In this document: positions 19,114-36,582 of the stretch, piece after piece
How positions within the stretch are numbered: the first letter of the stretch is position 1
How the letters are laid out: every line of letters starts with the position of its first letter
NCBI RefSeq assembly: GCF_023074835.1
Contig: NZ_JALLGW010000002.1
Coordinates: 248,001 to 312,000, forward strand
DNA length: 64,000 nucleotides
Source of the DNA: Halomarina salina
Lineage (GTDB): Archaea > Halobacteriota > Halobacteria > Halobacteriales > Haloarculaceae
Reading direction: 5' to 3'
Position numbers and translations under genes: made by a program
Notes under the pieces: generated by a model
What the model was told of the DNA's origin: nothing
Database searches by the model: none
What the model saw: the letters and a program-made list of their open reading frames with translations, nothing else

Positions 19114-19581
19114 TTACTCCTCGAGGAGTCGCTGTGCGACGCTGTACGTGTACTTGAAGTCCTCGGCGAGGACGTCGCCGCGGTAGTACTCGACGAGGCG
19201 GCGGACCTTCGACTCCGTGTTCTGGAGTGCGCGCTTGTTCTGCGCGTCGCCGGGGTGCTCGTCCATGTGTTCGCGCAGGCGGACGGCCCGCTCGAACAGG
19301 TTACGGAGGTCCTCGGGGAGGTCGTCGGTCGCGTCGTTCTCCTCGAGAATCTCGGTGACCTTCTTGCCCGTCGCCAGCTTCACGTTGGGGACGGGCGTGC
19401 CCTGGACGCCCTCGTCGCGCAGTTTCATGCCGATCTGGCTGGGGTCGTGCCCCTGTTCGGCCAGGTCGACGACGCGCTCCTCGATGGCGTCGGCGTCTAC
19501 GTCGCTCCACTCCGGTGGTTCGTCTACCGTCGGGCGGTCCGAACCGGACGAACCGCGACGGCGGGTGTGCATTCGTGCCAT
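19114..19581 (-). CDS. rps15: 30S ribosomal protein S15 (uS15)
   Basis: A 155-residue archaeal S15. The N-terminus MARMHTRRRGSSGSDRP is the haloarchaeal form, with the eukaryote-like N-terminal extension. The core shows VVDLAEQGHDPSQIGMKLRD and, near the end, NTESKVRRLVEYYR. I use the ATG at 19579-19581; the in-frame ATG seven codons upstream precedes residues not typical of S15. It is the first gene of an operon with the RecJ-like gene, pcc1 and rps3ae. Its promoter lies in the 265 bp before tRNA-Ala. Confidence 0.95.
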   Translation of the reverse strand: MARMHTRRRGSSGSDRPTVDEPPEWSDVDADAIEERVVDLAEQGHDPSQIGMKLRDEGVQGTPVPNVKLATGKKVTEILEENDATDDLPEDLRNLFERAVRLREHMDEHPGDAQNKRALQNTESKVRRLVEYYRGDVLAEDFKYTYSVAQRLLEE

Positions 19582-19811
19582 TGGCTGAGATTGGAACTGC
19601 ACGAACCGCTACGGGCCAGCCTGGCCCAGTGCACGTCCACACTCCCAAGCCGTCGAAGAGAGCCCGAATCGGGCGTCGACGGCGATGTCGGATATGCGGC
19701 TGTGCTGTTCCCGTCGGGCAATCGGTGCGTGGCGCGCAAAAACGTTGCTACTCGACTCGCCGCGGGCCGCGAGCGTCACGGCCACGCACGCGGCCCCGTG
19801 CTTCGATGGGG

Positions 19812-19846: not shown

Positions 19847-19918
19847 GGGCTTGTAGATCAGCGGCAGATCACTCCCTTGGCATGGGAGAGGCCCCGGGTT
19901 CAAATCCCGGCAAGTCCA
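19847..19918 (+). tRNA. tRNA-Ala (anticodon GGC)
   Basis: The full cloverleaf can be drawn. The acceptor stem GGGCTTG pairs with CAAGTCC and contains the G3:U70 pair that is the identity element of alanine tRNAs. The anticodon stem CTCCC/GGGAG encloses loop TTGGCAT, giving anticodon GGC (reads GCC). The T arm is CCGGGTTCAAATCCCGG. The discriminator base is A; no CCA is encoded and no intron is present. A T run (19921-19925) directly follows and probably ends transcription. The composition of the sequence downstream changes sharply, as at the edge of a genomic island. Confidence 0.96.
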
Positions 19919-20353
19919 TGTTTTTGCGACGCGGGCAACTCCGCGAGCGTCGCACCCACCACGTTCACGGATTTGATTGACCTCCTCCCGCGCCTACAAA
20001 CGGAGGTATACGCTCGATATCTATCATCCACTACGTTTCCACGCCGTGATACCCGAGTAGAGACTGAATTCTCCACAGTTCAGAATCAGACGTTCGATCA
20101 GTTTCCGAGACCTTTATTCAAATCCATATCTCCAGCGAACGACTAGTAGCACCAAGACGAGTCGGCAGGTTTCTCCTCGATAGACCACACTCCTGGCAGT
20201 ACCGTGAAACTAGCGGCTACGTTGTCTCCCTCCTGAGAGCACCGGGACGTCACCAGTTCATAACACCCCGACGATACGTATGTCCACAGATGGTCTGTTC
20301 CCCCGGTAGGTACTCCCGTATAGCCATTTGTGGATTCCTAGACGGTGAGAGGT

Positions 20354-20367
20354 GCCTCCTAGGAGGC
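20354..20367. repeat. perfect 14-bp palindrome
   Basis: GCCTCCTAGGAGGC is a perfect palindrome centred on a CTAG. No flanking gene start or TATA box is close enough to call it an operator. Confidence 0.6.
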
Positions 20368-21163
20368 CGTGGTGGCTACAGATACCGAGGGGGCTGTCTC
20401 AACGTGGCGAGTGCAGCAGTCTCAGCGGGTCAGATTGTACAGAGACTCACCCTGGAGGACGAGTGTCCACAGTCGAACACCGCCATACTGCAAGGATTTG
20501 TGGAACGCCTCAGCACCCATCTGGAGAGGTGATCCCATAGAACGGTAGAACTGTCTGGCTTCCCCAGGGCGTCTAGAGAGCGCCATTCAAGCCCGATATC
20601 GGCCGATGCGCACGAAGGGTGTTATCTTTGCGCCGTCGGGTAGGCAAGACACTCAGCGAGTGAAAATAGCATGACGGGAGCAATGTGTGGAATTCTCGGA
20701 GTTGATTCTTGTTGAGGTTGCTGAACAGAATAACGGAGACGAATCCACATAGAGGTCTAATCTGACTCAGAAGCGTCTCTAGCGGCAACTACTACCACTT
20801 GAGCACACGTCACCGGTCGGGGCCAGAAGCATCCCCGAAGACCATCCTGTGTCTCGTATGGACACCCTGTTCCACAAACGCCAAACTAACTCCGTCTACC
20901 GGGGATTTGTCCCACCTGTGGAGATACACTGCTCATGCGTTCCCAGACCCGTGGGTGTTGTTGAACAGTTATTACTCGTCAGCGGAAGTGGAAAGCTTGG
21001 CTCAAGACGGCAGGGGATGTTCATTGTTCAGAAGAGTGCCTCGGTTTAGACGTGAGAGTCACTCCACTAATGACCAGGTGTCATCATGGACCGGGCTCGA
21101 AAACTGGACATATAACTATTTTTGCCGCAGCCACAGGGAGAGTGTGACGGTGGAAATCCGGAA

Positions 21164-21211
21164 GGTTCGCGGCTGCGCTCCGGAGCCTGATGCACCTCGC
21201 TAGCCGCGACC
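21164..21211. repeat. inverted repeat overlapping the stop of a small ORF
   Basis: GGTTCGCGGCT (21164-21174) is complementary to AGCCGCGACC (21202-21211) with one bulged base. The loop contains a second, self-complementary GCTCCGGAGC. On the minus strand it lies right at the stop codon of the 48-residue ORF, so a terminator or stabilising 3' structure is possible; there is no T tract. Confidence 0.45.
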
Positions 21212-21346
21212 GTGTCCTTGATAGATTCGTCGTGTTATGACCGCACAGGACGGGTCGACCTTGGAGATTTCGGCGATATCGTGCGGTGTGTCGAACTGGT
21301 CCATCGAATCGATTAGGGCCCTGACCAACTCAACACGGTCGTCCAT
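21200..21346 (-). CDS. 48-residue ORF, possible HTH fragment
   Basis: The ORF starts at ATG 21344-21346 and encodes 48 residues beginning MDDRVELVRALIDSMDQF. Unlike other frames here, its translation has haloarchaeal character: an acidic first half and a helix-turn-helix-like pattern in DIAEISKVDPSCAVITRRI. A good TATA box (21378-21385) lies about 35 bp upstream and an inverted repeat sits at its stop codon. It may be a small regulator, or the N-terminal piece of a truncated one. I recognise no named family. Confidence 0.4.
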   Translation of the reverse strand: MDDRVELVRALIDSMDQFDTPHDIAEISKVDPSCAVITRRIYQGHGRG

Positions 21347-21377
21347 ATTTCAGAGCGTGAGTCTCACAGAATGGAGT

Positions 21378-21385
21378 CTATTTAT
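21378..21385 (-). promoter_or_regulatory. TATA box for the 48-residue ORF
   Basis: On the minus strand the sequence reads ATAAATAG within GGATAAATAGACTCC, a typical haloarchaeal TATA element. Its centre is 35 bp before the ATG, implying a 5' leader of about 8-16 nt. Confidence 0.4.
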
Positions 21386-21434
21386 CCAGAACGACTCCGT
21401 TGCCCAGACTCGACCACAAGGTGTCATAACATTA

Positions 21435-21818
21435 ATGGGTGACATGTTCTTTGTTGGCTGTCACGGCTGTCTGTTCCGCCGAGTCGTCGGCGATCTGGAC
21501 AGGGCATTAACTCTCTGTGACAGGCACAAAGCGGGGGAAAATGACGACCATTCACTGGAAGTGTTGTCCTTCCAGTATATTGACGCCCTTGAGGACCCTA
21601 CTATCGGCCACCTTCGGACGATTGGTAGTAATGAGCCACCCTCTACAGCGATTATTCGTGCAGTCGCTGACGCTACTGACTGTTCCCCCCCTGTGCGTTG
21701 CCGGATTCTCTCACCAATGTCGTTGATTCGGACGCACTGGACCACCTGTTCGCTCAAAAACGCCCCGGAAAAGCGCCGTCTGCGGTCGTTACTTTCTGTT
21801 ACTGTGGGTGTCTCGTGA
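21435..21818 (+). CDS. possible small Cys/His protein or fragment
   Basis: From ATG 21435 the frame encodes 127 residues. The first 45 look like a haloarchaeal mini zinc-binding protein: MGDMFFVGCHGCLFRRVV followed by DLDRALTLCDRHKAG. That is a CxxC pair then a D-D-x-x-x-A-L...C..H block, as in many small haloarchaeal CxxC proteins. The second half (from about residue 65) loses this character and may be out of frame. No TATA box sits at the usual distance. It is either a weak small gene or the remains of one. Confidence 0.28.
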   Translation: MGDMFFVGCHGCLFRRVVGDLDRALTLCDRHKAGENDDHSLEVLSFQYIDALEDPTIGHLRTIGSNEPPSTAIIRAVADATDCSPPVRCRILSPMSLIRTHWTTCSLKNAPEKRRLRSLLSVTVGVS

Positions 21819-22002
21819 CGGTGTCCGACAATCGGACCATCGTTGTACAAACTGAGTTTGGCGAGTCGCCTATCTAGTGAGGGGGAGAAATCCCACTGAG
21901 CGCCTGTCCAGTCGAGTGGCTGCGAACTGCGCTACGTCCGCGAGTGCTACACAGAACAGCCAAACGCCACTGGATATCGATGGTTCAGCTGCACCTGTAG
22001 AG

Positions 22003-22008
22003 CTATAC
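22003..22008 (+). promoter_or_regulatory. TATA box of the E1-alpha gene
   Basis: CTATAC is centred 27 bp before the ATG at 22032, which fits leaderless transcription and supports that start. Confidence 0.4.
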
Positions 22009-22031
22009 AGTCAGGCGACACACTCGCGGTT

Positions 22032-23156
22032 ATGGACGTCCGCGAGCGCCGAGACCTAATCGATCGTGACTACGACGACCGTATCTGTCTCCTCGCTCCG
22101 GACGGCACTCTCACTGCGGGGTACGAGCCGACGCTCTCCGAGGAGGAACTCGTCTCGCTGTACGCGGACATGCGACTCGGACGGCATTTCGACGACCGGA
22201 TGGTGAGCCTCCAGCGGCAGGGCCGTGTCGGCACCTACTCGCCGATGGCAGGACAGGAGGGGTCGGGCTTCGGCTCAATGTATGCGCTCGCGGAGGACGA
22301 CTGGGTCTTCTTCCAGTACCGCGAGCACGCTGCACCCCTCGTCCGTGGATTCTTACCAGAGTATATCCACTACTGGACGGGCCACGAATCGGGGAACTCT
22401 GTGCTCGGAGACGGGCGAATCTTCCCGTTGAATATCTGCATCGGCGATCACCTACCCCACGTTACGGGGATGGCGATGGGCGCGAAACTCCGAGGCAACG
22501 ACGAGGAGGTCTTCGTCGCGCACTTCGGGGACGGTTCCACGTCGGAGGGCGACTTCCACGAGGGACTCAACTTCGCTGGAGTCTACGACACCCCGACGGT
22601 GTTTCTCTGCCATAACAACGGTTGGGCCATATCCATCCCTCGTGAGGCACAAACCCGCTCGCAGACGCTTGCACAGAAAGCGGTCGCCTACGGCTTTGCA
22701 GGCGTGCAGGTCGACGGGATGGACCCACTCGCGGTGTATGAGGTGATACGGGCGGCCCGCGAGAAGGCACTCAACCCCCGCGAGGGCGAGGCGCGACCGA
22801 CGCTCATCGAGGCTGTCGAGTACCGCTACGGTGCCCACACGACTGCCGACGACCCCGCTACCTATCGCGACGACGAGGAAGTCGAGCAGTGGCGGCGCCT
22901 CGACCCAATTGATCGATTGGAAACATACCTCCGCCGCGAGGACATACTTGACAAGGGAGATATCGAGACAATCGAGACGGAGAACGAAGAGCGGGTGGCC
23001 GCGGCAGTCGATTCGCTCGCCGACGTGGTGGCAGATCCCGACGACATGTTCGCGAATACGTTAGCCGACCCGACGCCGCGGATGGTCGAACAACGTGAGT
23101 ACCTGCGCGACTTACTGGAGAAGCATGGCGATGAGTCGCTACTGAGAGACGAGTAG
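22032..23156 (+). CDS. pdhA: thiamine-diphosphate 2-oxoacid (pyruvate) dehydrogenase E1 alpha subunit, orphan
   Basis: A 374-residue E1-alpha of the branched-chain/pyruvate dehydrogenase family. The ThDP-Mg motif is GDGSTSEGDFHEGLNFAGVY (166-185) continuing to FLCHNN (191-196). RHFDDRMVSLQRQGRVGTYS (51-70) and FFQYREHAAPLVRG (93-106) are further E1-alpha signatures. It would decarboxylate the 2-oxoacid with an E1-beta partner. No E1-beta, lipoyl E2 or E3 gene is adjacent, unlike typical pdhABCD operons. The partner must be encoded elsewhere, or this is a transferred paralogue. Codon use is somewhat less GC-rich than in the flanking core genes. Confidence 0.9.
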   Translation: MDVRERRDLIDRDYDDRICLLAPDGTLTAGYEPTLSEEELVSLYADMRLGRHFDDRMVSLQRQGRVGTYSPMAGQEGSGFGSMYALAEDDWVFFQYREHAAPLVRGFLPEYIHYWTGHESGNSVLGDGRIFPLNICIGDHLPHVTGMAMGAKLRGNDEEVFVAHFGDGSTSEGDFHEGLNFAGVYDTPTVFLCHNNGWAISIPREAQTRSQTLAQKAVAYGFAGVQVDGMDPLAVYEVIRAAREKALNPREGEARPTLIEAVEYRYGAHTTADDPATYRDDEEVEQWRRLDPIDRLETYLRREDILDKGDIETIETENEERVAAAVDSLADVVADPDDMFANTLADPTPRMVEQREYLRDLLEKHGDESLLRDE

Positions 23157-23309
23157 GCCTCAGTACCTCTCCCAAAGCGTCGACTGCCTGGGGGAGTCGC
23201 TGCAACACCTAACGATCACCTTTGCTCACCTGATACAGCTGTTAGGTACATGCCGCGAGTCTACCAATCGCCCCACGATTACTTGTCACTCGATACAGTG
23301 GAATGGGAT

Positions 23310-23480: not shown

Positions 23481-23584
23481 ACGACTCACGCTCTGCGTGT
23501 ATCGAACAGGTCGAGTGAGCGGCGCGTGCCGCATTTATAACAGCCTCTCTCGTAACGGACAGGTGTATTCACTCAGACTGAAGA

Positions 23585-23590: not shown

Positions 23591-23614
23591 GCGTGTCAGC
23601 AGGACGTGCAGACA

Positions 23615-24391
23615 ATGCGACGACTGGTCCCCCTATCGCTGGTAGCACTGTTGCTCCTCTCTGGCTGTATGGGTGGTCTTGGCGGCACCGAGAGCACCTT
23701 GACGCCCGAGGAGGCTGACCTCCCACCGGGCGTGAACGAGTCGGGCCTCCAGAACGCCTCGGCACTCGCCGCCGAGCACAACGAGACCGCGCGTGAGGTC
23801 GGAATCGTCCTGAACGCCACACTCACTCGACAGAGTGTCGGTCCGACGGAAAGCGTTCGACGGGTCCACACCGTTATGGCTGCCGGTGGCCGTCCACTCA
23901 ACACGACCACCGCCACTTCGAAGTACGACGGCAATGGCACGCTCATGGGACAGCCAACGGTCATTCAGCGGTGGGGTAACGAGTCGACGGTTATCGGACG
24001 GAGTACCCTCGCCCAGCGGGCAGGCGTGGTGACGGACCCGTTCCCGCCTCAAAACCGGAACGCACCGACGCAGGCGAGGTTCTACTTCGCGTCTCTCGGG
24101 GTCGCGAACTACACCGTCGATTCCGTCGTTGAGCGTGACGGCCACACGTTCACGACGCTCGTCGCCAACGAAACGACTGAGAAGTCAGGGACAGTCGACG
24201 CACGGGTTCTCGTGGACGAGCGTGGCCTCATCCACGAATTCACGTTCCATCAGGATAAGGGAAACGACCACGAGTTCCATCTGGAGCATCGAATCATCAA
24301 AACGGGTCCCTCACCGCCGGAGCGACCGGACTGGGCAGCGAACGTCACAGAGTGGCCCCCAGAGAACACCACCCAGAACGGGTCAGCATAG
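23615..24391 (+). CDS. haloarchaeal lipoprotein (DUF7537-like)
   Basis: A 258-residue secreted protein. The signal peptide MRRLVPLSLVALLLLSGC ends in a lipobox, so the mature N-terminal Cys is lipid-linked on the outer membrane face. The mature part contains many N-glycosylation sequons (NET, NAT, NTT, NGT, NES) and alternates beta strands in a pattern like the haloarchaeal DUF7537 lipoproteins, whose function is unknown. The assignment to that family is from memory of its N-terminal pattern. The next gene lies 840 bp downstream. Confidence 0.7.
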   Translation: MRRLVPLSLVALLLLSGCMGGLGGTESTLTPEEADLPPGVNESGLQNASALAAEHNETAREVGIVLNATLTRQSVGPTESVRRVHTVMAAGGRPLNTTTATSKYDGNGTLMGQPTVIQRWGNESTVIGRSTLAQRAGVVTDPFPPQNRNAPTQARFYFASLGVANYTVDSVVERDGHTFTTLVANETTEKSGTVDARVLVDERGLIHEFTFHQDKGNDHEFHLEHRIIKTGPSPPERPDWAANVTEWPPENTTQNGSA

Positions 24392-25200
24392 GGTGACAGT
24401 AGTGATAGACTCACGCTCGCGGTCTATCAGTACCGGCAATCGACGTGCCGAACCAGAGATGGCTCTTTCTGTTGACGTTCGGTGTACCCAGGGGATGACA
24501 CGAAGCGGGGGGTCCGTATCGATAGTCAATCCGATGTGGCGGTGTACGCGACTAATCACACGTGTGTGAGCGTTCGTTTCGGAGCAACTCGGCGTGACCT
24601 GACAGGTTCTTTGTTTCCACCTTCGAAGACACGTAGACGGCTAACTACCCATTGAGACGGAACCGCTGGAAATCGAACTAGAGCAATGCTCAGATGGTGG
24701 CATTCCGAAGTACCGTGAAGGGGCGGGCTTCCTCCTTGCTTCTCGGTGAGATGTGACTCGGCCTCTCGTCAAGCATGCGGTTGCCATTGGCGAGTGCTAC
24801 GGCGTACTGGTCAGTCAGACGGGTGAGAAATACGGTATCGACATTTGTGATGAAGCGGGGAGTGTCGTCGAAGAAAACATCGTCAGGCTCCTCAAGAAAT
24901 CGTCGGTTGGCATTGTCGAGCCTAACGACTCAAATTCCAGATGCCCTGAAGATATCGTTCGTGGTAGTCGCCGTTACTCCTCGCGTTCGTTTCCTCGTTC
25001 CCAGACTCGGTCGACTCGCTCTCCTTCTGGTGGTGTGTGGCTCACGTCTTTGAGTGTCTGCTTTGACATCGTGGCACTGAGTAGCAATCCCATTGTACTT
25101 AACCGCTCCCTGAGACGGCCATTGATTCATTAGATGCCCTTAGTCAATGCATACTGACACGGTCTGGCTGGTATCTGAACCACTCAGTGCAGACAAACGG
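24392..25200. other. intergenic stretch holding only a gene remnant
   Basis: No intact gene is supported. Plus-strand frames here give Ser/Arg-rich shadow translations. The only protein-like signal is a minus-strand frame without start codon (24690-24929), listed separately. The pilin promoter begins at the right edge. Confidence 0.5.
24690..24929 (-). pseudogene. gene remnant, 3' part of an unknown acidic protein
   Basis: The minus-strand frame from 24929 down to the TGA at 24690 encodes 79 residues of clearly haloarchaeal style. Examples are RRFLEEPDDVFFDDTPRF followed by VDTVFLTRLTDQYAVALANG. It has no plausible start codon (no ATG or GTG before residue about 47), and an in-frame TGA at 24930-24932 precedes it. 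It therefore looks like the C-terminal end of a truncated or nonsense-interrupted gene. I do not recognise the family. Confidence 0.4.
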
Positions 25201-25232: not shown

Positions 25233-26693
25233 ATGGGTCTTGGGGATATCTCTGTGTTGTGGACAGGTCGTGATAGGGGAATTTCGTCGACGATTGGCGT
25301 CATCCTCATCTTAGGAATCGTCCTCATCGGAACGACCAGTATCGTCGCGTTCGGGTCGATCGCGCTTGAAGATACTCAGCGCCAATCAACGCTCGAACGC
25401 GCTGAGCAAACGATGGCTCAATTCGACTCACGCGCAGCACAGGTCGCCCTCGGCGGAGAAGAGACAACACAGCGACTGTCAATGGGGCAAGCAGAGGGAA
25501 ACTATCAGGTACTCCCGAATAATGGCAAAATCACCATTACGCACGTCGACTACAACGACGCTGATGATGACGAGGTTATTTATTCGGAGCCTCTTGGCGC
25601 GGTTGTATACGAGAACGGCGACACGACGTTGAGCTATCAGGGCGGTGGGGTGTGGCGAACGGATGGCGGAAACACACAGATGGTATCGCCACCCGAGTTC
25701 CACTACCGTGGTTCGACCCTCACGCTCCCTGTTATCCGCGTCTTTGGTAGCGATAGTGCAGCTGGGTCACCGACTGCGGTGCTCAAGAAGCAGTCGATGA
25801 AGCCGATCTATCCCCTCTCCGGGAAACACTACGGGGACGACACCGCTGAGTATCTCAACCCGGCAAGCAATGGACAGATTCAGATTACAATCGAAAGTCC
25901 GTACTACCGGGGATGGGCAGAATACTTCGATGCACGGACGGAAACCAACGTAGTCACCATTGACGACGCGAATCAGCAAGTGACCGTCGACCTCATCACG
26001 CTGGGCCCACAGGGGCAATTTAACATTCCGACCAAGGAAGACCCACTCCAGGTTCAGGGGATGACGCCTGGGAGCATGAGTGACCTTTCACTAACAGTTC
26101 GTCCAGAGGCGAGCAGACCACAGAAGCTATCAAGCCTTGACTGGTCACTATACATTGATAGAAACGGACGGCAGTTCGAAGTCAATGTGAACGGTCTCAG
26201 CAATGGGGAATGTTCTGACTCACAGGCCGCAGATATCTCGGTTTACTACTCAGATGATGACGGGGTGTCCTATCATGGGTGGAAAGCAGAAGACGCGATA
26301 CCGGTTACCTGTAATGTCACTACCAATAATCCCGAACTGAAGATCAACCTCATGGACAGTGGCATCGATATGACATATGACGATCTTAGTGGGAATCTGG
26401 CAGAGAACAATCCAAACGGCCAAACGAAAAACTCAGTTTCGTTCGACCACTTTGACACCGACCCGATGGAGACCTACAACCGCTCGGACTTGGAAAAAGA
26501 AAACCTGGATGTAGTCATCCGTCACTACCTTAATCACTTCGCTCCGAATTTCCAAATCGAATCAAACGCGGGTAACAGCGGGAACAATGTTGGCATTGGA
26601 ACTTCGGAAGGGGATGACATCCAGTATGACGGTGACACAGTAATCACCTTCCTCCACGTTTCCGAGAACAATGTAGAAGTGGAGTTAGAGTAG
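25233..26693 (+). CDS. large type IV pilin-like surface protein (DUF7289-like)
   Basis: A 486-residue protein with a class III (type IV pilin) signal. After the short basic leader ending DRG comes the hydrophobic helix ISSTIGVILILGIVLIGTTS, with the prepilin peptidase (PibD) cut expected after the glycine (about residue 16). The rest is a Gln/Asn/Thr-rich extracellular beta domain. The N-terminus resembles the DUF7289 proteins at the end of the pil operon opposite. The head is much larger than in common haloarchaeal pilins. It is transcribed towards the pil operon and is likely exported or assembled by it. Lower GC than core genes. Confidence 0.8.
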   Translation: MGLGDISVLWTGRDRGISSTIGVILILGIVLIGTTSIVAFGSIALEDTQRQSTLERAEQTMAQFDSRAAQVALGGEETTQRLSMGQAEGNYQVLPNNGKITITHVDYNDADDDEVIYSEPLGAVVYENGDTTLSYQGGGVWRTDGGNTQMVSPPEFHYRGSTLTLPVIRVFGSDSAAGSPTAVLKKQSMKPIYPLSGKHYGDDTAEYLNPASNGQIQITIESPYYRGWAEYFDARTETNVVTIDDANQQVTVDLITLGPQGQFNIPTKEDPLQVQGMTPGSMSDLSLTVRPEASRPQKLSSLDWSLYIDRNGRQFEVNVNGLSNGECSDSQAADISVYYSDDDGVSYHGWKAEDAIPVTCNVTTNNPELKINLMDSGIDMTYDDLSGNLAENNPNGQTKNSVSFDHFDTDPMETYNRSDLEKENLDVVIRHYLNHFAPNFQIESNAGNSGNNVGIGTSEGDDIQYDGDTVITFLHVSENNVEVELE

Positions 26694-27114
26694 GTGAAAG
26701 GGTGACCTGAACCGCAGAGTAAGCCCACCACGGGCAAAGGTCACCCCCAGGATACTCGCCTTGCTCATCTGTAAATAGCGCCATTTTTGATATATTATTC
26801 GGCCTGTTCACCTCGCTATATGGCATGCACTATCCCATAGACACATCCGAGGAACGGTCAGGAGCTACAGAGACATACCCTTCTGAGACTAACTACAATC
26901 GGTAGTTGTTGGAGAAGCATCTCAGAAATTCATTCTCGAATTGACGAAGTCAGAACTCGTACCGCGCAAAGCCAGAATTCCGACGACACTCAACACCGAT
27001 GATTGCCGGCCTGAATTTGAGAGAGAACAAGACGTCATCGATACGGTGAGTACCAACTCGACGAAAGCGTGTGAAGGGGAATTACAGCAGTCCACTGCAG
27101 CCGCTTCATCTCGT
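26694..27114. other. intergenic stretch between convergent pilin-like genes
   Basis: About 420 bp with low GC. It holds the inverted repeat at 26700-26746 and otherwise no supported gene. A TTG-initiated plus frame from 26941 runs antisense into the next gene and is not called. Confidence 0.5.
26700..26746. terminator. nested inverted repeat after the pilin-like gene
   Basis: GGGTGACCT (26700-26708) and AGGTCACCC (26738-26746) are perfectly complementary. A second stem GCCC/GGGC (26723-26735) sits inside. The structure starts 7 bp after the stop codon of the pilin-like gene. Terminator or 3' stabilising function is inferred from position. Confidence 0.5.
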
Positions 27115-27903
27115 TCACTCGAAGTCGCCGCCAATGTTGACGACACGAAGCACCCACTGCGTCGCGCTGAACGATACCTCCACTGTCGTTCGTCCGTCAG
27201 ATGTATCCGCATCAGGGGTCGCGATGTTCCTATTCCATGCCGTGTCGTCGGGAATTACCGATTCAAAGTATCGTCGCCAGACCTCCGCACGCGCGTCCGA
27301 CGTAACAATCTTGATTTTCACCATATTCCCACCGGCATCAGAACCAACAGTCGCGAGTCGGCCTGCTGAACCTTCAAAACGCGTAGTTCGGACGAGTACG
27401 TTCGAACTACCTCCGATACTCGTCGCGCCTTCTGCGTTGAGGTCAAGCACCGAGAATACAACCGACCGGTCGCCAGTCGGACTGCCGAAAGTCATCGTCG
27501 GGCTTCGAGTCATCCATGCAGAATCCGACTGGGAACGGAGCACTGCACCGTTCTCATAGATGACTTGCTGTCCTCCGTACGTGTACACCAATGGCCGTGT
27601 TGACTCATTGAGCTTTTCAACCCCTCCTACATCGACGGTGATATTGGTCGAGTCAGAGAATCCAATCTGACCGTCTGCAAGTTTCAATTCCGTCGCTCTG
27701 CTTGGCGCACCGTCCTGATCGATGTCCTCAACATTGTCCGCGAGCACGTCAAACGCTCGATCCATGTTGTTGACTCGTTCGACATCACGTGCGTTTTCCA
27801 GACCGTCGAAGCCAACGACGTAGACGGTGCTGACGGTCATCATGATGAGCGAAAAGACGAGGATGAATCCAACGACCTCGCTCACTCCACGGTCCTCACG
27901 CAT
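27115..27903 (-). CDS. type IV pilin-like protein, DUF7289-like
   Basis: 262 residues starting at ATG 27901-27903. It has the short charged leader MREDRG and then the hydrophobic helix VSEVVGFILVFSLIMMTVST, a class III signal with likely PibD cleavage after Gly6. The rest is an extracellular domain of beta character with conserved VYTYGGQQVIYENGAV. Its architecture matches the DUF7289 family found at the end of haloarchaeal pil operons. It overlaps the preceding gene by 8 bp, so it is the last cistron of the operon. Likely a minor pilin or pseudopilin. Confidence 0.8.
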   Translation of the reverse strand: MREDRGVSEVVGFILVFSLIMMTVSTVYVVGFDGLENARDVERVNNMDRAFDVLADNVEDIDQDGAPSRATELKLADGQIGFSDSTNITVDVGGVEKLNESTRPLVYTYGGQQVIYENGAVLRSQSDSAWMTRSPTMTFGSPTGDRSVVFSVLDLNAEGATSIGGSSNVLVRTTRFEGSAGRLATVGSDAGGNMVKIKIVTSDARAEVWRRYFESVIPDDTAWNRNIATPDADTSDGRTTVEVSFSATQWVLRVVNIGGDFE

Positions 27904-28351
27904 CGTCGACCACCAACTCGGTGCCGTCGAATGTGATGCTGAGTTCGCCTCCCCGAATCGCTCCCCCTCCTGAGATTGAAATGTCACGGTAGGTGTCGAA
28001 GGTCACCGAGACGCTCACGTCTGGATTCTCTGTGGTGAGGACTAATCGTTGCTTTGTGGTTCCTGAAACGTCCTCGAGATGTACCATGTATGTCGCCCCC
28101 GTCATTCGATCAGGATAGGACCTTGAGAGGACGATTGTCGATGGCGTTCCATCACGAGAGAGTTGGTCAGCCGTTTCGAAGTCCGAAACTATCTGTTGGC
28201 CCACGACCTGCATCTGCGAGTCAATCGTTGCCTGTCGCTGTCCGCCGACAATGTCGCCACCGGCCACCAACAATCCAGTGATGAGAATGCCAGTGACGCC
28301 CAAGGTGAGGACATAGCTGATGACCGTCGACAAACCACGGTCCTCACGCAT
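27896..28351 (-). CDS. type IV pilin-like protein, DUF7266-like
   Basis: 151 residues. The leader MREDRG is followed by the hydrophobic stretch LSTVISYVLTLGVTGILITGLL, again a class III signal. The downstream domain contains VLSRSYPDRMTGATYMVHL and ends GGELSITFDGTELVVDDA. The start (28349-28351) overlaps the upstream gene by 8 bp. In haloarchaea such proteins (DUF7266) lie in the same position of pilB-pilC operons; pseudopilin function is inferred. Confidence 0.78.
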   Translation of the reverse strand: MREDRGLSTVISYVLTLGVTGILITGLLVAGGDIVGGQRQATIDSQMQVVGQQIVSDFETADQLSRDGTPSTIVLSRSYPDRMTGATYMVHLEDVSGTTKQRLVLTTENPDVSVSVTFDTYRDISISGGGAIRGGELSITFDGTELVVDDA

Positions 28352-29213
28352 CAGTCTCACCCGGAGCCACCCGAATCTGCGTCTCATAATAGAGGTATTT
28401 CGTCTGGTAGGAGTACTCGACCGTAACCGCGTAGATAGCCGTCGACCCTGAGAGGCTAGAAGTCGAATCTGCCGCGTCGTCGATAACGAAAGAGTACTTG
28501 CCCTTCACTTGGTCCCCGCTGCGTACGCTGATGTCGTACTCCGAAGACAAATCGCTGAACACGTTAAGTGCGGTGCAATCGTGTCCCTCGATAGTTCCTT
28601 GAGACACCCGCACATTTGCTCGACCGTCAGCGATTGACTCAGTACATGAATCAAGTACAGCCCCTCCGTCGTCTTCCTGATTGACCGTTATTTCAGAGGA
28701 TGTCACCTGAAATACGAGGTTCAGACTGTTTGAATCCCCGACCAACTGTACGGTGAACGTTCCCGGCGTGGAAGTGTCGAGGTCCATTTCCAAATCGCGA
28801 ACTTTCGTGTCGGTCGCAATCACGTAGTCAGCCGATCCGTTATCACTTTCGAAGGTCGTATCGGACGTCTGTGTGAACTGCAACCCACTATCGACACTGG
28901 CGAGATCAGCATTATGGAAGTCGACAGCAGCCCCCTGCTTTCCGGCCCTCATCGCCATCTCGTTCCCAATTGTGTTTATCATCGCCACAACATCGCTTTC
29001 TGTCATCGACTCTTGGTTCGCGTACTGGATGGACTTCTCAACGTTGTGTCTGAGGTCGGTCGTGAAAAGTACAGCATCATTCGATGCATCGGCGTTAGTC
29101 CGACTCGCGAGGTTCTCGGTATAGATAGCACTGTTGAGAACGAGCGCGATGGCGACGAGAACGAGCGCTAACGACAACCCACCAACGAGTATCAGTTGCG
29201 CACGGTCCCTCAC
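28344..29213 (-). CDS. pil-operon membrane protein, DUF7261-like
   Basis: 289 residues from a GTG start at 29211-29213 that overlaps the upstream stop in a GTGA. The N-terminus VRDRAQLILVGGLSLALVLVAIALVLNSA carries one transmembrane helix just after the start, pilin-like. A large extracellular domain follows with two Cys in DSCTES and GHDCTALN and a late YSYQTKYLYYETQIRV. DUF7261 proteins are known from this syntenic place, function unknown. A longer ATG-started version would add residues overlapping the neighbour and is less likely. Confidence 0.75.
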   Translation of the reverse strand: MRDRAQLILVGGLSLALVLVAIALVLNSAIYTENLASRTNADASNDAVLFTTDLRHNVEKSIQYANQESMTESDVVAMINTIGNEMAMRAGKQGAAVDFHNADLASVDSGLQFTQTSDTTFESDNGSADYVIATDTKVRDLEMDLDTSTPGTFTVQLVGDSNSLNLVFQVTSSEITVNQEDDGGAVLDSCTESIADGRANVRVSQGTIEGHDCTALNVFSDLSSEYDISVRSGDQVKGKYSFVIDDAADSTSSLSGSTAIYAVTVEYSYQTKYLYYETQIRVAPGETDA

Positions 29214-29830
29214 TGCCGCCACACGACCACCTCCACATCGATAACCCGGTAGATACCATCGGTCGTCGAGTCCTCTCCGTAGCACTCCACAACATCGACG
29301 GTGTCGCTGGGCAGCTCTACGAGTGAACCGTCACCCGGGTCATCGGTGATCGCCTCTCCCTCCATTAGGGTAATCGTCCGTTTTTCGACAACGGCGTTGT
29401 CACTCGGATTTCCCTGGTAGATGAACTCCTCTCGAACACGGTCACCGTCGTCGTTGTAGGTCAGGTAGATGTTGAAAGCGATAGAACGATCCGAGAACGC
29501 GTGTTCGAGTTTCTCACCAAACCCAGTGGTCGAACCGCTGCTCCCGATTGGAGCGCTAACGTAGTACTTCCGGGAGGCGGTCCCGTAGTACTTCGGAACG
29601 CCACTAGCACGAGTGCAGTAGCGTAGACCGCGACTAAGAGACCCGTCTTCGATGCCCGCCGCCAGAACTCCAGCGGCCGTCGACTCCTCCTCATTCTCGA
29701 TATGCTGGCTGGATGTACTCGCAGAGAGAGGTGTGACGGCAGTCACTTGAAGTGCGAAGAGGAGACTACCGAGTAGCAGAACGGCAGCCATGATAGCTTC
29801 GAGAGTGTGTGCTTGTCCACGGTCTACCAT
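29210..29830 (-). CDS. pil-operon pseudopilin-like protein, DUF7288-like
   Basis: 206 residues. The start MVDRGQAHTLEAIMAAVLLLG has the short RGQ leader and a hydrophobic helix, typical of pseudopilins of this operon type. The extracellular part contains CTRASGVPKYYG and the sequence FGEKLEHAFSDRSIAFNIYL. The start overlaps the stop of the preceding gene by 7 bp, and the stop overlaps the next start. Role in assembling the pilus is inferred from operon membership. Confidence 0.77.
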   Translation of the reverse strand: MVDRGQAHTLEAIMAAVLLLGSLLFALQVTAVTPLSASTSSQHIENEEESTAAGVLAAGIEDGSLSRGLRYCTRASGVPKYYGTASRKYYVSAPIGSSGSTTGFGEKLEHAFSDRSIAFNIYLTYNDDGDRVREEFIYQGNPSDNAVVEKRTITLMEGEAITDDPGDGSLVELPSDTVDVVECYGEDSTTDGIYRVIDVEVVVWRQ

Positions 29831-30372
29831 ATTTTCACCACTAGCTCCGCGAATATGCCATCAATGCTGACTCGCCGAGAGGCCGTGACGACTGATCCCG
29901 AGGACGGAACGCTATCGCCAGTATCGTACTCAACCGTACACGTGCCGTCGTCTGTTTCGATAATCGATCCGCTATCCGAAAGGCAGAGAGAGTTCTCTGT
30001 ACCATCACCATCCGCGTCTCCTATCAGAGCGGCGTGAATCGAGAGGCGGCGGTCAGAATCCAGCCGCTCGTACATCCGTCCCCCCGACGATAGGTCAACA
30101 GATTGGTCGAAGTCGCAATCAGGGGACCCTGTCGGAGTATGCCGAAAGAATTCCGTTGTACACACAGGATCGAATACGTACGGTTCTCCCTCAGTCAATG
30201 CATCAGTCGCCAACTGGCTGGCCAATCGGTTGGAAGCAGCCATCTCTTCTTGTCCACTGTTCGAGAAGGGTTGGACCATCCCCGGTACGAACGAGAAGAC
30301 GAACGCGACGGCGAGCAAGAACACGCTTACACCAATTGCGAAATCCAATGTTGTTTGGCCTCTTCCAGGCAT
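29824..30372 (-). CDS. pil-operon pseudopilin-like protein, DUF7287-like
   Basis: 182 residues. The N-terminus MPGRGQTTLDFAIGVSVFLLAVAFVFSF shows the GRGQ leader plus a long hydrophobic helix, the class III signal. The head has two Cys pairs (PVCTTEFF...PDCDFDQ and SLCLSDS...GTCTVEYD), compatible with disulphides outside the cell. It follows pilC with a one-base gap. Confidence 0.77.
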   Translation of the reverse strand: MPGRGQTTLDFAIGVSVFLLAVAFVFSFVPGMVQPFSNSGQEEMAASNRLASQLATDALTEGEPYVFDPVCTTEFFRHTPTGSPDCDFDQSVDLSSGGRMYERLDSDRRLSIHAALIGDADGDGTENSLCLSDSGSIIETDDGTCTVEYDTGDSVPSSGSVVTASRRVSIDGIFAELVVKIW

Positions 30373-30373
30373 C

Positions 30374-32404
30374 TCAGATCACCATGAACACGATTAACGC
30401 GAACGTCGGCAGGATAACGATGAACTTCATCCCAGCGAGGATGCTCACATCACGGATGTACCCTGCGACGATGCCCGAGACGATCGCCTGAAACGTCACC
30501 GCGTGGAAGAACAGCATGTCCAACAGCGGAACGTCGACGTTGTTCGCGAAGCCACCACCGCCTCCAACCCCACCAGAACCGGCTGCCTGGGACCCACCAC
30601 TTCCAGCCGATGACTCGGCGAGACCAGCCATCACGCCAAGGAATTTTACCTTGAGAATGGCCATGACTGCTAGCAGTGTCAGGAACGTCATGATGATAAT
30701 GACGACCTGCATCCGGGTGCGGGACTTTCGGTCTCGAGCGATGTCGTCCTGGTTCTCAGACGCCTGTGCGGCGGTCGTCAAAACGGCTGTGATCTGACTC
30801 GATGCTTCCTGTGCCTTCGCGATGAGCTTCACCGTTCGTGCCAGGCGAGGCATATGATATTTGTTGTTGAATTCGTAGAGCGCGTCTTTCAGACTCGTTC
30901 CGTAGTTGACCTTCGCGTGCATCGTCTCGAACTCATCAGCGAGCCGCCCACTGGATGTCTGCGAAACGGACTTGATCGATTCGAGTAGCGTCATCCCGGT
31001 ATCGTTGGCCGAGGAGAGCTTCCGGAGGTTTTCTGAGAGTTTCCCGACGATACTCCGCCGGTGTCGGATATTCCACTCATAGAACGCTGTTAATGGGATG
31101 CCATTGATATACAGCGGGAGGTAGAGCCAGAAGAAAGTTCCTCGTACCGGAGCTTCTTTCATCGCCTCGAGTGAGAGAGGTGCCCACCCACCGAGTACTG
31201 AGAACGCCATAAAGACGAGCGTCATCGGTATGGTGATACACAACACCATGAGTGGGTGATCTCGGAAAAAGAGATGCGGGCGCTTGAGCATCTGGATGGT
31301 CTCATAAGTCCCCTCACGACCCTTGATACGGTGGAAGACGCTGTATGATCCCGTGAACTGCTCGACGAGACCGAGACTGAAGAGGCTCTCAGAGGTCGAA
31401 GAGTCCCCACGCTGTTTGTGGAGATAGCCTTCCCCGACTTCGTCCTGCACTACGGTCGAGATCATGACCAAGAACCCACCCCCAACGAGGGGAATGAGAC
31501 CGTAGACTGTCGCGTATAGCAGTGTATCCTGTGACTGGCCCATCATCGACATGATGACGAGGATGATGAGCAAGAGGAGCGGGAACAGCGACAGTGTCAT
31601 GAACATCTCCCCGAACAGTTCGAGTGTTTCCAAGACAGTCTCCTGTTCCTGCTTCGAGGTCCGCATCTGCTTGTCCTTCTGGTCTTCGAGGAATTTCGTC
31701 ATGTTTCCCCCAGAGTTGACAATCGAGAGCATGTCGGTGAGGAACTGCGAGAACTCGTCGCTCGGCGTGCGTGTAGACTGGTTCTGAATAGCAGTCCGGT
31801 AATCCGTATCGAAATACTGGGTCTCGCGGATGATCGACTGGAACTCCTTGGAGACCTCGCCGTAGGTGTCGTCGGCCATCGCGATGGCTTCGAGAATCTC
31901 GAGTTGATTGAGCCCACCCACGGAGAGCGCATACATGAACGACGTCGCGTCCGAGAGCAGAACGTTGATTTCGCGTTTTCGTTCGCCTGCCTTGAAGTAC
32001 GGCACGCTGAGCAGGGTGCCGAATCCGAGACTGAACCCGATGGCACCAAACACTAGCCCGCCGATGAGGATGAGTGCCGGTATCTTGATAGCCTGAACGA
32101 AGGCGAGTGCCTGTCCCTCCAACGGGAGTCCGAGTAGCGTCGGCGTCCCCTGGACGAACAGCTGAAACACCATGTAGACACCAAGCGTCCCAACGATCCA
32201 GAGAACGAGCCCACACAGTACACCGACAGCGAGCGCCCGCGAGAGGTACATCTCGACTGTCTGTGGCATCCGTGCCTGCGCGAGTTTCGTCTCGATTGAC
32301 GCGGTGAAATCGCCGTCCTCGTCAAACAGGTATCGATAGAGTGGGTAGAACGCATCGCTAATGCTGTCTGTGCTGAACTGCCCGCCAGCAGCTTCAGTGC
32401 TCAT
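30374..32404 (-). CDS. pilC: type IV pilus/T2SS platform protein PilC (TadC/GspF family)
   Basis: A 676-residue inner-membrane platform protein with two copies of the T2SSF domain. Each is a cytoplasmic helical bundle bounded by transmembrane helices: about 60-130 and 265-315 in the first half, about 390-440 and 575-660 in the second. The second-half core contains SANDTGMTLLESIKSVSQT and the first SFMYALSVGGLNQLEILEAIA. It would convert PilB ATPase motion into pilin assembly. Its start overlaps the pilB stop (ATGA). A Gly/Ser-rich loop lies near residue 615-630. Confidence 0.9.
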   Translation of the reverse strand: MSTEAAGGQFSTDSISDAFYPLYRYLFDEDGDFTASIETKLAQARMPQTVEMYLSRALAVGVLCGLVLWIVGTLGVYMVFQLFVQGTPTLLGLPLEGQALAFVQAIKIPALILIGGLVFGAIGFSLGFGTLLSVPYFKAGERKREINVLLSDATSFMYALSVGGLNQLEILEAIAMADDTYGEVSKEFQSIIRETQYFDTDYRTAIQNQSTRTPSDEFSQFLTDMLSIVNSGGNMTKFLEDQKDKQMRTSKQEQETVLETLELFGEMFMTLSLFPLLLLIILVIMSMMGQSQDTLLYATVYGLIPLVGGGFLVMISTVVQDEVGEGYLHKQRGDSSTSESLFSLGLVEQFTGSYSVFHRIKGREGTYETIQMLKRPHLFFRDHPLMVLCITIPMTLVFMAFSVLGGWAPLSLEAMKEAPVRGTFFWLYLPLYINGIPLTAFYEWNIRHRRSIVGKLSENLRKLSSANDTGMTLLESIKSVSQTSSGRLADEFETMHAKVNYGTSLKDALYEFNNKYHMPRLARTVKLIAKAQEASSQITAVLTTAAQASENQDDIARDRKSRTRMQVVIIIMTFLTLLAVMAILKVKFLGVMAGLAESSAGSGGSQAAGSGGVGGGGGFANNVDVPLLDMLFFHAVTFQAIVSGIVAGYIRDVSILAGMKFIVILPTFALIVFMVI

Positions 32405-34719
32405 TCCGAATCACCCATCGTGCGGAATCCGCCGAAGCCTTCGTTCTCGTCCACCCCCGCCAGTGCCTCAGCGAACTCATCTGGCGTGACCTCCTCGCCG
32501 CTGTACTCCTTGAGCATTGAGGTGCCTTGTGTGAGTATCTCCTCTGCTTCCGAGAGTACCTCCAGCGTCGGGTCGGGTCGGGGGACCATCTCCTCTTTGT
32601 CGGGGTCGATGTCGATGCTGACCGACTCCATCTCACGCAGGTCGACGAGACTCTCTTCGAGATCGCCGTTTGCGATGAGTTTCAAGATGGTACTCGGGTC
32701 GTTGATGAACGCCTGGAGCGTCGCCGCCACCTGCGTGTAGGTGTTTAAGCGGGCCTCGATGAGATACGCGAGAACGATTTTCCGCTTGAAGAGTTCGTCC
32801 TCCAGTTTGTCCTGGTTCCACCCGCGGTCGAACTTGATCTCCTCGATGGTGTTCGACTGGCCCATCTTGAGGTACTCGTCCGTTTCGGCCTGCCACTGGT
32901 AGACGTCCTGGACGTTGATCTCGTCGTTCTCCGGGTCGTAGCGGTTGATCTCGGTGAGCGACTTGTTTCGGCGGACCTTGTTGCCGTTGACGCGGGTCGA
33001 CGTCTGGATGGAGACGAGGTCGAGCGCTGTGAACATCGTCTTTGAGACGTTGATTGGTTCGGTCGTGAATCGCTTGATGACCTCCCCGACGGAGTCGGCG
33101 TGGAACGTCGTCAGCGTCGTGTGCCCGGTCGACATGACCTGGAACAGCGTGCGACCCTCCTCCCCACGGATCTCACCCATGACGATGTACTCGGGGCGCT
33201 GTCGGAGTGCGGCTTCGAGCAGGTCGAACTCATCGACGTCGCCCTTCCCGTCGTCGGAGAACGACGGGCGCGTAACGCTGGCGATCCAGTTGCGCTGTGG
33301 CAACTCGACCTCGCGTGTGTCCTCGATAGAGACGATTTTCGACTTCGAGGGGATGAACAGCGAGACGGCGTTGAGCGAGGTGGTTTTCCCCGACGCCGTC
33401 CCGCCCGCGAAGATGAGCGATTTGTTGTTCTCAATGCAGAGCCAGAGGTACGCCATTTCCTCGAGCGAGAAGGTGTTCCAGTTGATGAGGTCGATGGGCG
33501 TGAACGGGACGTCCTTGAACTGCCGGATGGTGTAGTTCGTCCCGTGGTCGGACACCTCCTTGCCGAGGGTCAACTGTGCACGTGACCCGTCAGGGAGCGT
33601 ACAGTCCACCTGTGGCTGGCGTTTCGAGATGCCCTTCCCGGAGCGCTGGGCCATCTTGACGACGAAGTCGTCGAGTTCCGTCGTCCCGTGGTAGACGTTC
33701 GAGATGATCTGCTCGTGGTCGGCGTGGTAGACGAAGACAGGTGATTCATACCCGTCACACGAGACGTCCTCCACGTTGATGTCGTGTTTGATGGGGTCGA
33801 TGCGCTCGAAGCCGACGAAGTCACGGCGAAGGTAGTACAGTAACTTCTCAACCTGATACTCGGTGAGCGTCGGCGAGTCCTCTTCGAGGAGCGCCGGCTC
33901 CGGGCGAGCAGCGATGCCGCCGAGTTCCCCAGTGTGGACGACGTGCTCCTGTTCGAACCCGAATATTTCCTTAAGCTGTGCGACGAACCCCTCCTCTTCG
34001 CTGGCGGGTTCATCAGACGCGAAGGCAGCGATATCACCGTCGAACAGGTCATACCGGTCAAGCAGTCGCTTGGTTTCACGCTCGATAACACTCGCTCGCG
34101 ATTCCTCGCTTCCCTGAACGATGACCTCGTCTGACGAGTATTTGATCGCCGTCTTGAGTTTCCCCGAGAGGAACTCCATCAGATCCTCTTCGATGTCCGT
34201 GAGGTGCGGTTCGATCGCATAGTACTTCTGTTCGTTCTCCTTGTCCGAGTGGAAGATGACGACGAACGCATGGGGTTTGTTCACCCAGTAGCGATCGATC
34301 TCCTCGAAGTGTGATTTCTTCTCCTGAGGAACGGACTTTTCGAGGTCATAGCGATTCGAGACCGTCGTGTGTCCCTCAACCGTCGAGAAGAACTCGTCCT
34401 CGTCGAGTTCCTCATTGATTCGGACACAGCGTTCGCTTTCACGATTGAGCATGAGTTCCGCCGCGGACTCTCCGTGTGCCAGCATCGACCCGAGGACCTC
34501 AGGGTTGAAACCGAGGGCTTCCTCTTTGTCGAAGGGGATGACCCGCTCTCCATCATCTAGTGGCGGGTTCCCTTCGTCGTCGAAGTAGTACTCCCGTTTG
34601 TAATCCTCCCATGAGTACTCGCCGACAGTCACCGAGACTTCATCCGTGACGGACGCCTCATCCGACGATTCTGTCTGTGCGTCATCGCCGGTGCCCGGTA
34701 GGGCGTCCTTGATAGCCAT
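32401..34719 (-). CDS. pilB: type IV pilus assembly ATPase PilB (type II/IV secretion ATPase)
   Basis: A 772-residue cytoplasmic ATPase. The acidic N-domain (1-330) precedes the RecA-like core. That core has Walker A GGTASGKTTSLNAV (about 437-450), the Asp box near SIEDTREVELPQRNW, Walker B MGEIRGEEGRTLF and the His box STGHTTLTTFHAD. It powers pilus extension with PilC. I chose ATG 34717-34719 (MAIKDALPGTG); 16 codons upstream are AT-rich and contain the likely TATA region. It is the first gene of a seven-gene operon that resembles the pilB3-pilC3 adhesion pilus locus of Haloferax. Confidence 0.93.
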   Translation of the reverse strand: MAIKDALPGTGDDAQTESSDEASVTDEVSVTVGEYSWEDYKREYYFDDEGNPPLDDGERVIPFDKEEALGFNPEVLGSMLAHGESAAELMLNRESERCVRINEELDEDEFFSTVEGHTTVSNRYDLEKSVPQEKKSHFEEIDRYWVNKPHAFVVIFHSDKENEQKYYAIEPHLTDIEEDLMEFLSGKLKTAIKYSSDEVIVQGSEESRASVIERETKRLLDRYDLFDGDIAAFASDEPASEEEGFVAQLKEIFGFEQEHVVHTGELGGIAARPEPALLEEDSPTLTEYQVEKLLYYLRRDFVGFERIDPIKHDINVEDVSCDGYESPVFVYHADHEQIISNVYHGTTELDDFVVKMAQRSGKGISKRQPQVDCTLPDGSRAQLTLGKEVSDHGTNYTIRQFKDVPFTPIDLINWNTFSLEEMAYLWLCIENNKSLIFAGGTASGKTTSLNAVSLFIPSKSKIVSIEDTREVELPQRNWIASVTRPSFSDDGKGDVDEFDLLEAALRQRPEYIVMGEIRGEEGRTLFQVMSTGHTTLTTFHADSVGEVIKRFTTEPINVSKTMFTALDLVSIQTSTRVNGNKVRRNKSLTEINRYDPENDEINVQDVYQWQAETDEYLKMGQSNTIEEIKFDRGWNQDKLEDELFKRKIVLAYLIEARLNTYTQVAATLQAFINDPSTILKLIANGDLEESLVDLREMESVSIDIDPDKEEMVPRPDPTLEVLSEAEEILTQGTSMLKEYSGEEVTPDEFAEALAGVDENEGFGGFRTMGDSE

Positions 34720-34822
34720 GATTTTCGATACGTTTGCCCCACAAAAAGGTTTGCGTCTATTTATCAAAACGTCTCGGAGTAATAACTATCCGAAGGAGAG
34801 AGCTAAACCGCTCAACTGCAGC

Positions 34823-35971
34823 CTAGTCACCTAAGAACCGTTCGAGTCGGTCCATCGCGGTCCGGAGGTCGTCCATCCCCGTCGCGTACGACACACGGAG
34901 GTGGCCCGCGCCACCGGCACCGAACGCGCCGCCCGGCACCATCGCGACGCCTTCCGCGTCGAGGAGCGCTTCCGCGAACGCCTCTGCGTCGCCGCCGGGA
35001 GCTTCCGGGAAGAGGTAGAACGCACCGGTCGCCTCCGGACAGTCGATGCCCATCTCGCGGAACCGCGCGAGGACGAACCGTCGGCGACGGTCGTACTGCG
35101 CGCGCATCGACGACACCTCCTCCCCGCACTCCCGGAGGGCGGTCAGTGCCGCGAACTGTGCGGTGGTCGGTGCCGACAGCATCGTGTACTGGTGGACCCG
35201 GTTCATCGCGCCGATGGCGTCCGCCGGTCCGCACGCGTAGCCCAGTCGGAGCCCCGTCATCGCGTACGCCTTCGAGAAGCCGTTGAAGACGATGGTCCGT
35301 TCGCGCATCTCGGGCAGCGAGGCGATGGAGACGTGCTCGCCCTCGTAAGTGAGTTCGGCGTAGATCTCGTCGGAGAGCACCGTCAGGTCGTTCTCGCGGG
35401 CGAACTCGGCGACGGCTTTGAGGCCCGCGCGGTCCATCGTCGCCCCCGTCGGGTTGTTCGGGTAGCAGAGGACGAGCATCTCGGCGTCCGCCGCGCCCGA
35501 CTCGCGGAGCACCTCGAGGGTGAGTTCGAACCCGTCTTCGGCGCGCGTCGGGACCGGAATCGGCTCCGCACCGGCGAAGGTGACCCCCGGCACGTACGAG
35601 ACGTACGACGGCTGGACGACCGCGACGCCGTCGCCGGGGTCACAGAGCGCCCGGAACGCGAGGTCGATGGCCTCGCTCGCCCCCGAGGTGACGACGATCT
35701 CCTCGTCGGCGTCGTACGACAGGTCGTACCGCTCGACGTAGTCGGCTATCTCCTCTCGGAGTTCGCGCTTGCCGCGGTTGGCGGTGTAGGAGGTCCGGCC
35801 GCGTTCGAGCGAGTCGATGGCGGCCTGTCGGGCGCGCCACGGTGCGGTGAAGTCGGGTTCGCCGACGCCCAGCGACACCACGTCGTCGCGCTCCTCGGCG
35901 AGTTCGAAGAACCGTCGGATACCCGACGGCGGGACCGAGGCGACGCGCTCGGAGACGCTGAACTCGCTCAT
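34823..35971 (-). CDS. PLP-dependent aminotransferase, class I/II
   Basis: A 382-residue fold-type I aminotransferase. Motifs are LGVGEPDFTAPW (35-46), CYPNNPTGATMD, LSDEIYAELTY and the PLP-lysine FNGFSKAYAMTGLRLGYACG (about Lys232). Its pairing with an AsnC/Lrp regulator suggests an amino-acid substrate such as an aromatic or branched-chain amino acid, but the sequence does not fix it. The ATG overlaps the Lrp stop by 4 bp, so the two genes are translationally coupled with the regulator first. Confidence 0.92.
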   Translation of the reverse strand: MSEFSVSERVASVPPSGIRRFFELAEERDDVVSLGVGEPDFTAPWRARQAAIDSLERGRTSYTANRGKRELREEIADYVERYDLSYDADEEIVVTSGASEAIDLAFRALCDPGDGVAVVQPSYVSYVPGVTFAGAEPIPVPTRAEDGFELTLEVLRESGAADAEMLVLCYPNNPTGATMDRAGLKAVAEFARENDLTVLSDEIYAELTYEGEHVSIASLPEMRERTIVFNGFSKAYAMTGLRLGYACGPADAIGAMNRVHQYTMLSAPTTAQFAALTALRECGEEVSSMRAQYDRRRRFVLARFREMGIDCPEATGAFYLFPEAPGGDAEAFAEALLDAEGVAMVPGGAFGAGGAGHLRVSYATGMDDLRTAMDRLERFLGD

Positions 35972-36453: not shown

Positions 36454-36582
36454 ACTCGGTACGCGGAGGACTGCAGGAAAAAGGCTTCTCAACCCGTGAT
36501 ATCTCCACCCACGCCTCGTCACCGACCCCTAGGTCATGATAAAGTGTGAACAATCGGGAGAACCGACCTTATATCCATACCA

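Follow-up and report, generated by a model that had tools for sequence, protein, structure and literature searches.

The window analyzed here is a 64-kb stretch of DNA (C2:248001-312000) from the 4.46-Mb draft genome of a Halomarina. Near its first third, a tRNA-Ala(GGC) gene preceded by the gene for ribosomal protein S15 and its leader RNA is followed by a CTAG-rich segment of 2.1 kb (19919-22031), a dehydrogenase gene, a lipoprotein gene, a micro-ORF, and a type IV pilus cluster, behind which lie genes for an aminotransferase and a transcriptional regulator (Table 1).

Table 1. Features of the tRNA-Ala locus, in window coordinates
Feature	Position	Strand	Evidence
Ribosomal protein S15 gene, left anchor	19114..19602	-	Pfam PF08069/PF00312; synteny
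S15-Halobacteria leader RNA	19631-19714	-	Rfam RF03143
tRNA-Ala(GGC)	19847..19918	+	ARAGORN; Rfam RF00005, 65.8 bits
Putative tRNA-tail unit, 5' half only	19919..19980	+	Alignment to units; GGATTTGA offset
Gene-poor, probably decayed DNA containing all 8 CTAG	19981..21957		CTAG counts; similarity searches
HalOD1 output-domain pseudogene, two reading frames	21630..21874	+	PF18545
tnpB transposon gene scrap, codons ~235-257, broken frame	21892..21963	+	DNA similarity
Orphan dehydrogenase E1-alpha cassette (ORF 22032-23156)	21958..23178	+	PF00676, 1e-73
DUF7537-like lipoprotein gene	23606..24391	+	PF24381, 8.6e-7, under curated cut-off
Possible second tnpB relic, codons ~296-335, weak	24759..24880	+	tblastn E 0.006, 5-kb target
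31-aa micro-ORF, right edge of variable interval	24974..25069	-	tblastn, 59-94% identity
Type IV pilus cluster: pilin-like genes, PilC-like T2SSF, PilB-like T2SSE	25233..34767		Pfam; order as in relatives
Aminotransferase and Lrp/AsnC regulator, right anchor	34823..36522	-	Pfam; synteny

Conserved flanks and a variable interval

The order of S15, tRNA-Ala, pilus cluster, aminotransferase, and Lrp is common to H. rubra, H. oriensis, and other Halomarina, and the order recurs, complete or in part, in Halorarius, Halobium, Halobaculum, Halogranum, Haloprofundus, and others. The cluster has the composition expected of a haloarchaeal pilus locus of the pilB/pilC type, with a T2SSE ATPase, a T2SSF membrane protein, and pilin-like genes in conserved order. 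The original prediction had counted the pili, up to 34.8 kb, among the accessory genes of a putative island. As this gene order and its location are conserved throughout the genus and beyond the family, the pilus cluster (25233-34767) is, judging from synteny, ancestral and neither an island nor its cargo; the cluster of H. rubra is low in GC as well (0.583).

The comparison of the tRNA-Ala locus in relatives, proposed originally as a way to find the ends of an island, did delimit a variable stretch, but the variation is confined to the DNA between the tRNA-Ala and the micro-ORF (19919-24973), and the conserved pilus cluster lies beyond it. The distance from tRNA-Ala to pilA1 is 5.3 kb in the window, 2.9 kb in H. 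rubra, 1.3 kb in H. oriensis, 8.0 kb in genome G005, 12.6 kb in genome G001, and 0.7–3.5 kb in the other relatives measured. The tRNA-Ala sites of relatives are occupied by other content, from 0.7 to 12.6 kb, and the genes found there are unrelated, e.g., those for a SASA esterase, TnpB, and HNH proteins. Two Halogranum loci, L101 and L110, each have two whole tRNA-Ala(GGC) genes ~2.5–2.8 kb apart, with an HNH endonuclease gene between the two in L101. The micro-ORF MSKQTLKDVSHTPPEGERVDRVWERGNEREE at the right edge is kept in other Halomarina, in Halorarius, and in Halosegnis (tblastn) and has no match in Pfam; in other Halomarina and Halorarius it is divergent from pilA1. An intron-bearing tRNA as the explanation of the conserved block before pilA1 was ruled out, the block containing the micro-ORF.

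The island reading of the tRNA edge is supported insofar as the DNA just behind the tRNA is not shared with any of 58 other genomes and the interval varies in length and content. In one form of it, a virus or plasmid entered the tRNA-Ala by means of an integrase, and all but a remnant of the element was lost. This form draws on the variability, on the second whole tRNA-Ala downstream in the two Halogranum loci, and on the precedent of Haloquadratum walsbyi C23, where a 19.7-kb provirus resides in a tRNA-Ala with a 22-nt duplication (PMC3119063). Our locus resembles that provirus in having tRNA-Ala as the insertion point and a low-GC neighbor, but neither the integrase nor the duplication of the provirus is seen in the window. 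No integrase was found among the examined ORFs of 19919-25232 (E1-alpha, the lipoprotein, a short membrane-type ORF, and the relics). The repeat of the tRNA 3' end that the original prediction suggested looking for downstream is absent as well: there is no exact match of at least 12 nt in the window and no copy elsewhere on its contig, for which reason an att site based on such a repeat was rejected. Genome-wide, with up to two mismatches, the 3' end matches another tRNA-Ala only, and repeats internal to the interval are short, chance-like matches. Similarity to phages and plasmids is furthermore limited to the tnpB scrap, and the sequence directly behind the tRNA-Ala resembles a truncated tRNA-associated unit (described below), not foreign DNA. 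We regard an integrated remnant as improbable.

CTAG content and relics of the 2.1-kb segment

The tetranucleotide CTAG occurs 24 times in the entire 64-kb window, and eight of these sites fall within 19919-22031 (at 20143, 20210, 20338, 20359, 20573, 20779, 21200, and 21874). The high-GC flanks contain nine sites in 49 kb, slightly more than the approximately seven in ~47 kb noticed originally. For the background, we sampled forty 20-kb pieces of the Halomarina genome and added the window, giving ~0.86 Mb, and ran the proposed sliding-window count of CTAG and GC over 3110 windows of 2113 bp each. The CTAG richness of 19919-22031 proved real: it alone reaches eight sites, with a maximum of seven elsewhere and a mean of 0.57, and none of the 125 windows with GC ≤ 0.56 contains eight. 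The second densest cluster of the sampled genome, with seven sites, lies in a gene-poor gap with a long ORF on each side. The change of composition reported at the tRNA is also present, GC going from 0.69 to 0.54 on entering the segment, but it does not coincide exactly with the tRNA end, since 19919-~19980 belongs to the tRNA-associated unit and no CTAG of the segment lies before 20143.

On the basis of trinucleotide frequencies, 7.9 CTAG sites are expected in 19919-22031, giving an observed/expected ratio of 1.01; avoidance is thus missing, neither reversed nor turned into an excess. In the sampled genome, genes called with a home-made caller had ratios of 0.11 in high-GC and 0.37 in low-GC coding DNA. 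The corresponding non-coding ratios, 0.49 and 0.45, are rough because the caller overlooks low-GC genes; the “non-coding” set contains genes, and the true ratio may differ. With eight sites, the ratio of the segment has a wide Poisson range of about 0.44–2.0, which spans the 0.45–0.49 of other non-coding DNA, and it is not clearly above the latter. The densest CTAG cluster of the sampled genome could be a functional non-coding region with meaningful sites, e.g., targets of an orphan CTAG methyltransferase, and Haloferax gibbonsii is documented to methylate CTAG (PMC7921747); yet the sites are as many as expected, the region is unconserved in relatives, and no Rfam family was found inside the CTAG-rich stretch, and we give this explanation very little credence.

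As the original prediction stated, no long frame is convincing: the longest ORF of the segment, with 193 aa (21237-21818), crosses a frameshifted relic of a HalOD1 gene. The HalOD1 domain is split over two frames and no intact frame across it was found, indicating a pseudogene; the match to PF18545 has an E-value of 8.3e-12 for the second frame alone and 8.3e-16 when both frame pieces are read together, and intact relatives are ~100–130 aa long. The tnpB scrap that follows (21892-21963) has 77–85% DNA identity to haloarchaeal plasmid loci, most of them annotated as tnpB or transposase. Together, the identifiable relics cover ~0.3 kb of the 2.1 kb. A fragment on the minus strand, 21203-21349, was discarded, having a single weak match among 97 genomes and no family. 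Searches with the DNA of 19981-21957 against relatives, plasmids, and phages gave no similar sequence except the tnpB scrap, and a six-frame protein search had zero matches among plasmids. Apart from the features in Table 1, the variable interval as a whole likewise resembled nothing in these sets. The DNA just 3' of the tRNA-Ala is absent from all 58 other genomes searched, and in no relative did we find the same 2.1 kb with conserved reading frames.

The neighboring E1-alpha cassette (21958-23178) has 86% DNA identity with an H. rubra locus at a different place, and its dN/dS is 0.115; by this measure, the orphan gene is maintained and under purifying selection. The contexts of E1-alpha (22032-23156 in the window and 2899-4023 in locus L051) differ between the two Halomarina species, and no E1-beta neighbor was recognized in the window.

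The low GC, the CTAG sites at their expected rate, and the absence of matches in relatives could also be explained by recent acquisition of the DNA from a donor of lower GC in which CTAG was never avoided and whose genes have diverged beyond recognition. We consider this unlikely, as long intact frames are absent and the recognizable pieces are broken members of haloarchaeal families. Furthermore, CTAG is reported to be under-represented in every haloarchaeal genome analyzed, and several viruses of haloarchaea have few CTAG sites or none (PMC6471742).

The explanation that we prefer, and hold to be likely, is that 19919-22031 consists of eroded DNA, most of it without function, and forms the left end of a 5-kb interval of gene turnover, located between the tRNA-Ala(GGC) and the micro-ORF and before the ancestral pilus cluster. 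Genes would enter the interval and then be lost or broken, as the HalOD1 relic and the tnpB scraps may exemplify, and the leftover DNA would drift to lower GC. If the strong avoidance of CTAG belongs mainly to the coding, high-GC DNA of the Halomarina genome, DNA relaxed in this manner would regain CTAG near the chance rate. The ~62 bp adjoining the tRNA-Ala would be older than the decayed DNA and represent a tRNA-tail unit cut short to its 5' half. We infer that the CTAG and GC values are due to a loss of selection and not to a foreign source.

Like the haloarchaea surveyed earlier, the genome around the window avoids CTAG, but the survey is genome-wide, whereas here the avoidance is much weaker where no genes were called and, in one eroded stretch, not apparent; the cause of the scarcity was stated as open (PMC6471742). 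If eroded stretches regain CTAG at the chance rate, this would speak for selection acting on functional DNA and against a mutational origin of the scarcity.

Structured units behind tRNA genes

Copies of the tRNA-Ala 3' end are found in relatives, mostly 90–420 bp downstream of the gene. In 19 of the 70 tRNA-Ala loci, a number that includes two loci present twice, the best match with ≤5/24 mismatches is downstream on the same strand, and in none is it upstream or on the other strand. The copies form the ends of units for which we coined the name “tRNA-tail unit.” Units of type U1 (100–155 nt) consist of a T-run, a hairpin, an anti-arm such as CGGGATTTGAA, an inner hairpin, and the tRNA-end copy, and those of type U2 (83–96 nt) have the acceptor end copied first inverted and then direct. 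The units can be arranged in tandem. Mixed arrays of U1 and U2 are seen at tRNA-Ala loci such as L108, L122, L063, and L103, and a Salinarchaeum tRNA-Met (L133, locus 7713-7789) is followed by two full tandem U1 units with a decayed third behind.

The pattern extends to other tRNAs. In the Halomarina genome studied here, 24 of the 43 tRNAs are followed within ≤400 bp by a copy of the own 3' end with ≤4/20 mismatches, in comparison with 2.3% when the tails of other tRNAs were used as a control; in 23 of the 24 cases no other tail matched better than the own one, and 10 copies were exact. A looser scan of the same 43 tRNAs (6/20 mismatches, 700 bp) found a copy downstream in 27 and upstream in 1, but that cut-off admits chance matches and the 4/20 limit within 400 bp is firmer; the copies of Asn and Thr(TGT), with six mismatches at 393 and 375 bp, are probably due to chance. 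Three consecutive copies stand behind each of Val(TAC) and Arg(TCG). Example units in this genome are those at C1:2603249-2603351, C1:414230-414582 (three in a row), and C2:371582-372022 (four in a row).

The anti-arm co-varies with the tRNA: mismatches between it and the own T-arm average 2.96 vs. 3.93 for shuffled partners, with a minimum of 3.22 in 5000 shuffles. A covariance model built on 14 units, 13 of them from other genomes, found units of this genome beside the listed tRNAs and on the same strand. In its 29 matches in the 43 tRNA loci, 94.7% of the cells were paired, vs. 86.1% in shuffles and 25–53% with partners slid by one to three columns, although the alignment was fitted to the structure and the count is thus biased towards it. 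Matches at E ≤ 0.001 were present in 38 of 39 Halobacteria genomes; in a sample of the phylum, at the stricter E ≤ 1e-5, they were present in four of four genomes of the same order and in none of the 27 others, which lie outside the Halobacteria. Rfam at gathering scores listed no unit in five unit-containing loci.

The sequence at 19919-~19980 has the first parts of such a unit, namely a T-run, the hairpin TGCGACGC..GCGTCGCA, and, at +50, GGATTTGA in the place of the anti-arm. A complement of the T-arm is expected near this offset, and it lies at +49 to +57 in relatives with a short first hairpin. Alignments to the 5' half of the genome's own tRNA-Pro unit and of the tRNA-Ala(CGC) unit of G001 scored 19 each, vs. 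shuffle means of 4.3 and 5.1 (sd 2, maxima 11 and 12), and those to two further reference units scored 13.5 and 12.5, vs. shuffle maxima of 11.5 and 13.5; the T-run and hairpin thus score well over all 300 shuffles for two of the four reference units. The covariance model alone is not significant here (4.4 bits, E 2.1). The 3' half of the unit is missing and with it the copy of the tRNA 3' end, the third feature of the family, which makes the window's unit a truncated remnant and places the start of the low-GC DNA within it. The truncation may have resulted from an insertion or a deletion.

Repeats behind tRNA genes have a bacterial parallel in the rtT repeats of E. coli tyrT, which lie in tandem behind the tRNA gene, each with the end of that tRNA, at one locus and as one sequence family. 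The tRNA-tail units share the tandem arrangement and the tRNA end but differ in forming a class-wide archaeal family with a co-varying stem. For haloarchaea, our literature search, with most subscription journals outside its coverage, gave only a remark on “partial tRNAs” in Haloferax gibbonsii LR2-5, some of which directly adjoin a full tRNA; integrative elements terminate there in copies of the tRNA 3' part, and the partial tRNAs were read as remnants (PMC7921747). The copies described here instead terminate ~100–155-nt units that have a common body and a co-varying stem, can be repeated in tandem, and occur behind most tRNAs; the window's tRNA-Ala itself has no tRNA-end copy. Reading the copies in relatives as relics of att sites is insufficient because of the shared body, the co-varying stem, and the presence behind most tRNAs.

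We think it moderately probable that the units represent an undescribed, Halobacteria-wide family of structured elements behind tRNA genes, with a near-exact copy of the own tRNA's 3' end, a co-varying anti-arm, and the possibility of tandem copies, and that a truncated member forms the tRNA edge in the window. Such a family would be either an RNA device of the 3' trailer or the trace left by an element whose insertion duplicates the tRNA end. The tRNA-tail units might explain the “partial tRNAs” of annotators and, if the family is real, class-wide units copying the end of each tRNA would bear on tRNA processing or on the role of tRNA genes as insertion sites.
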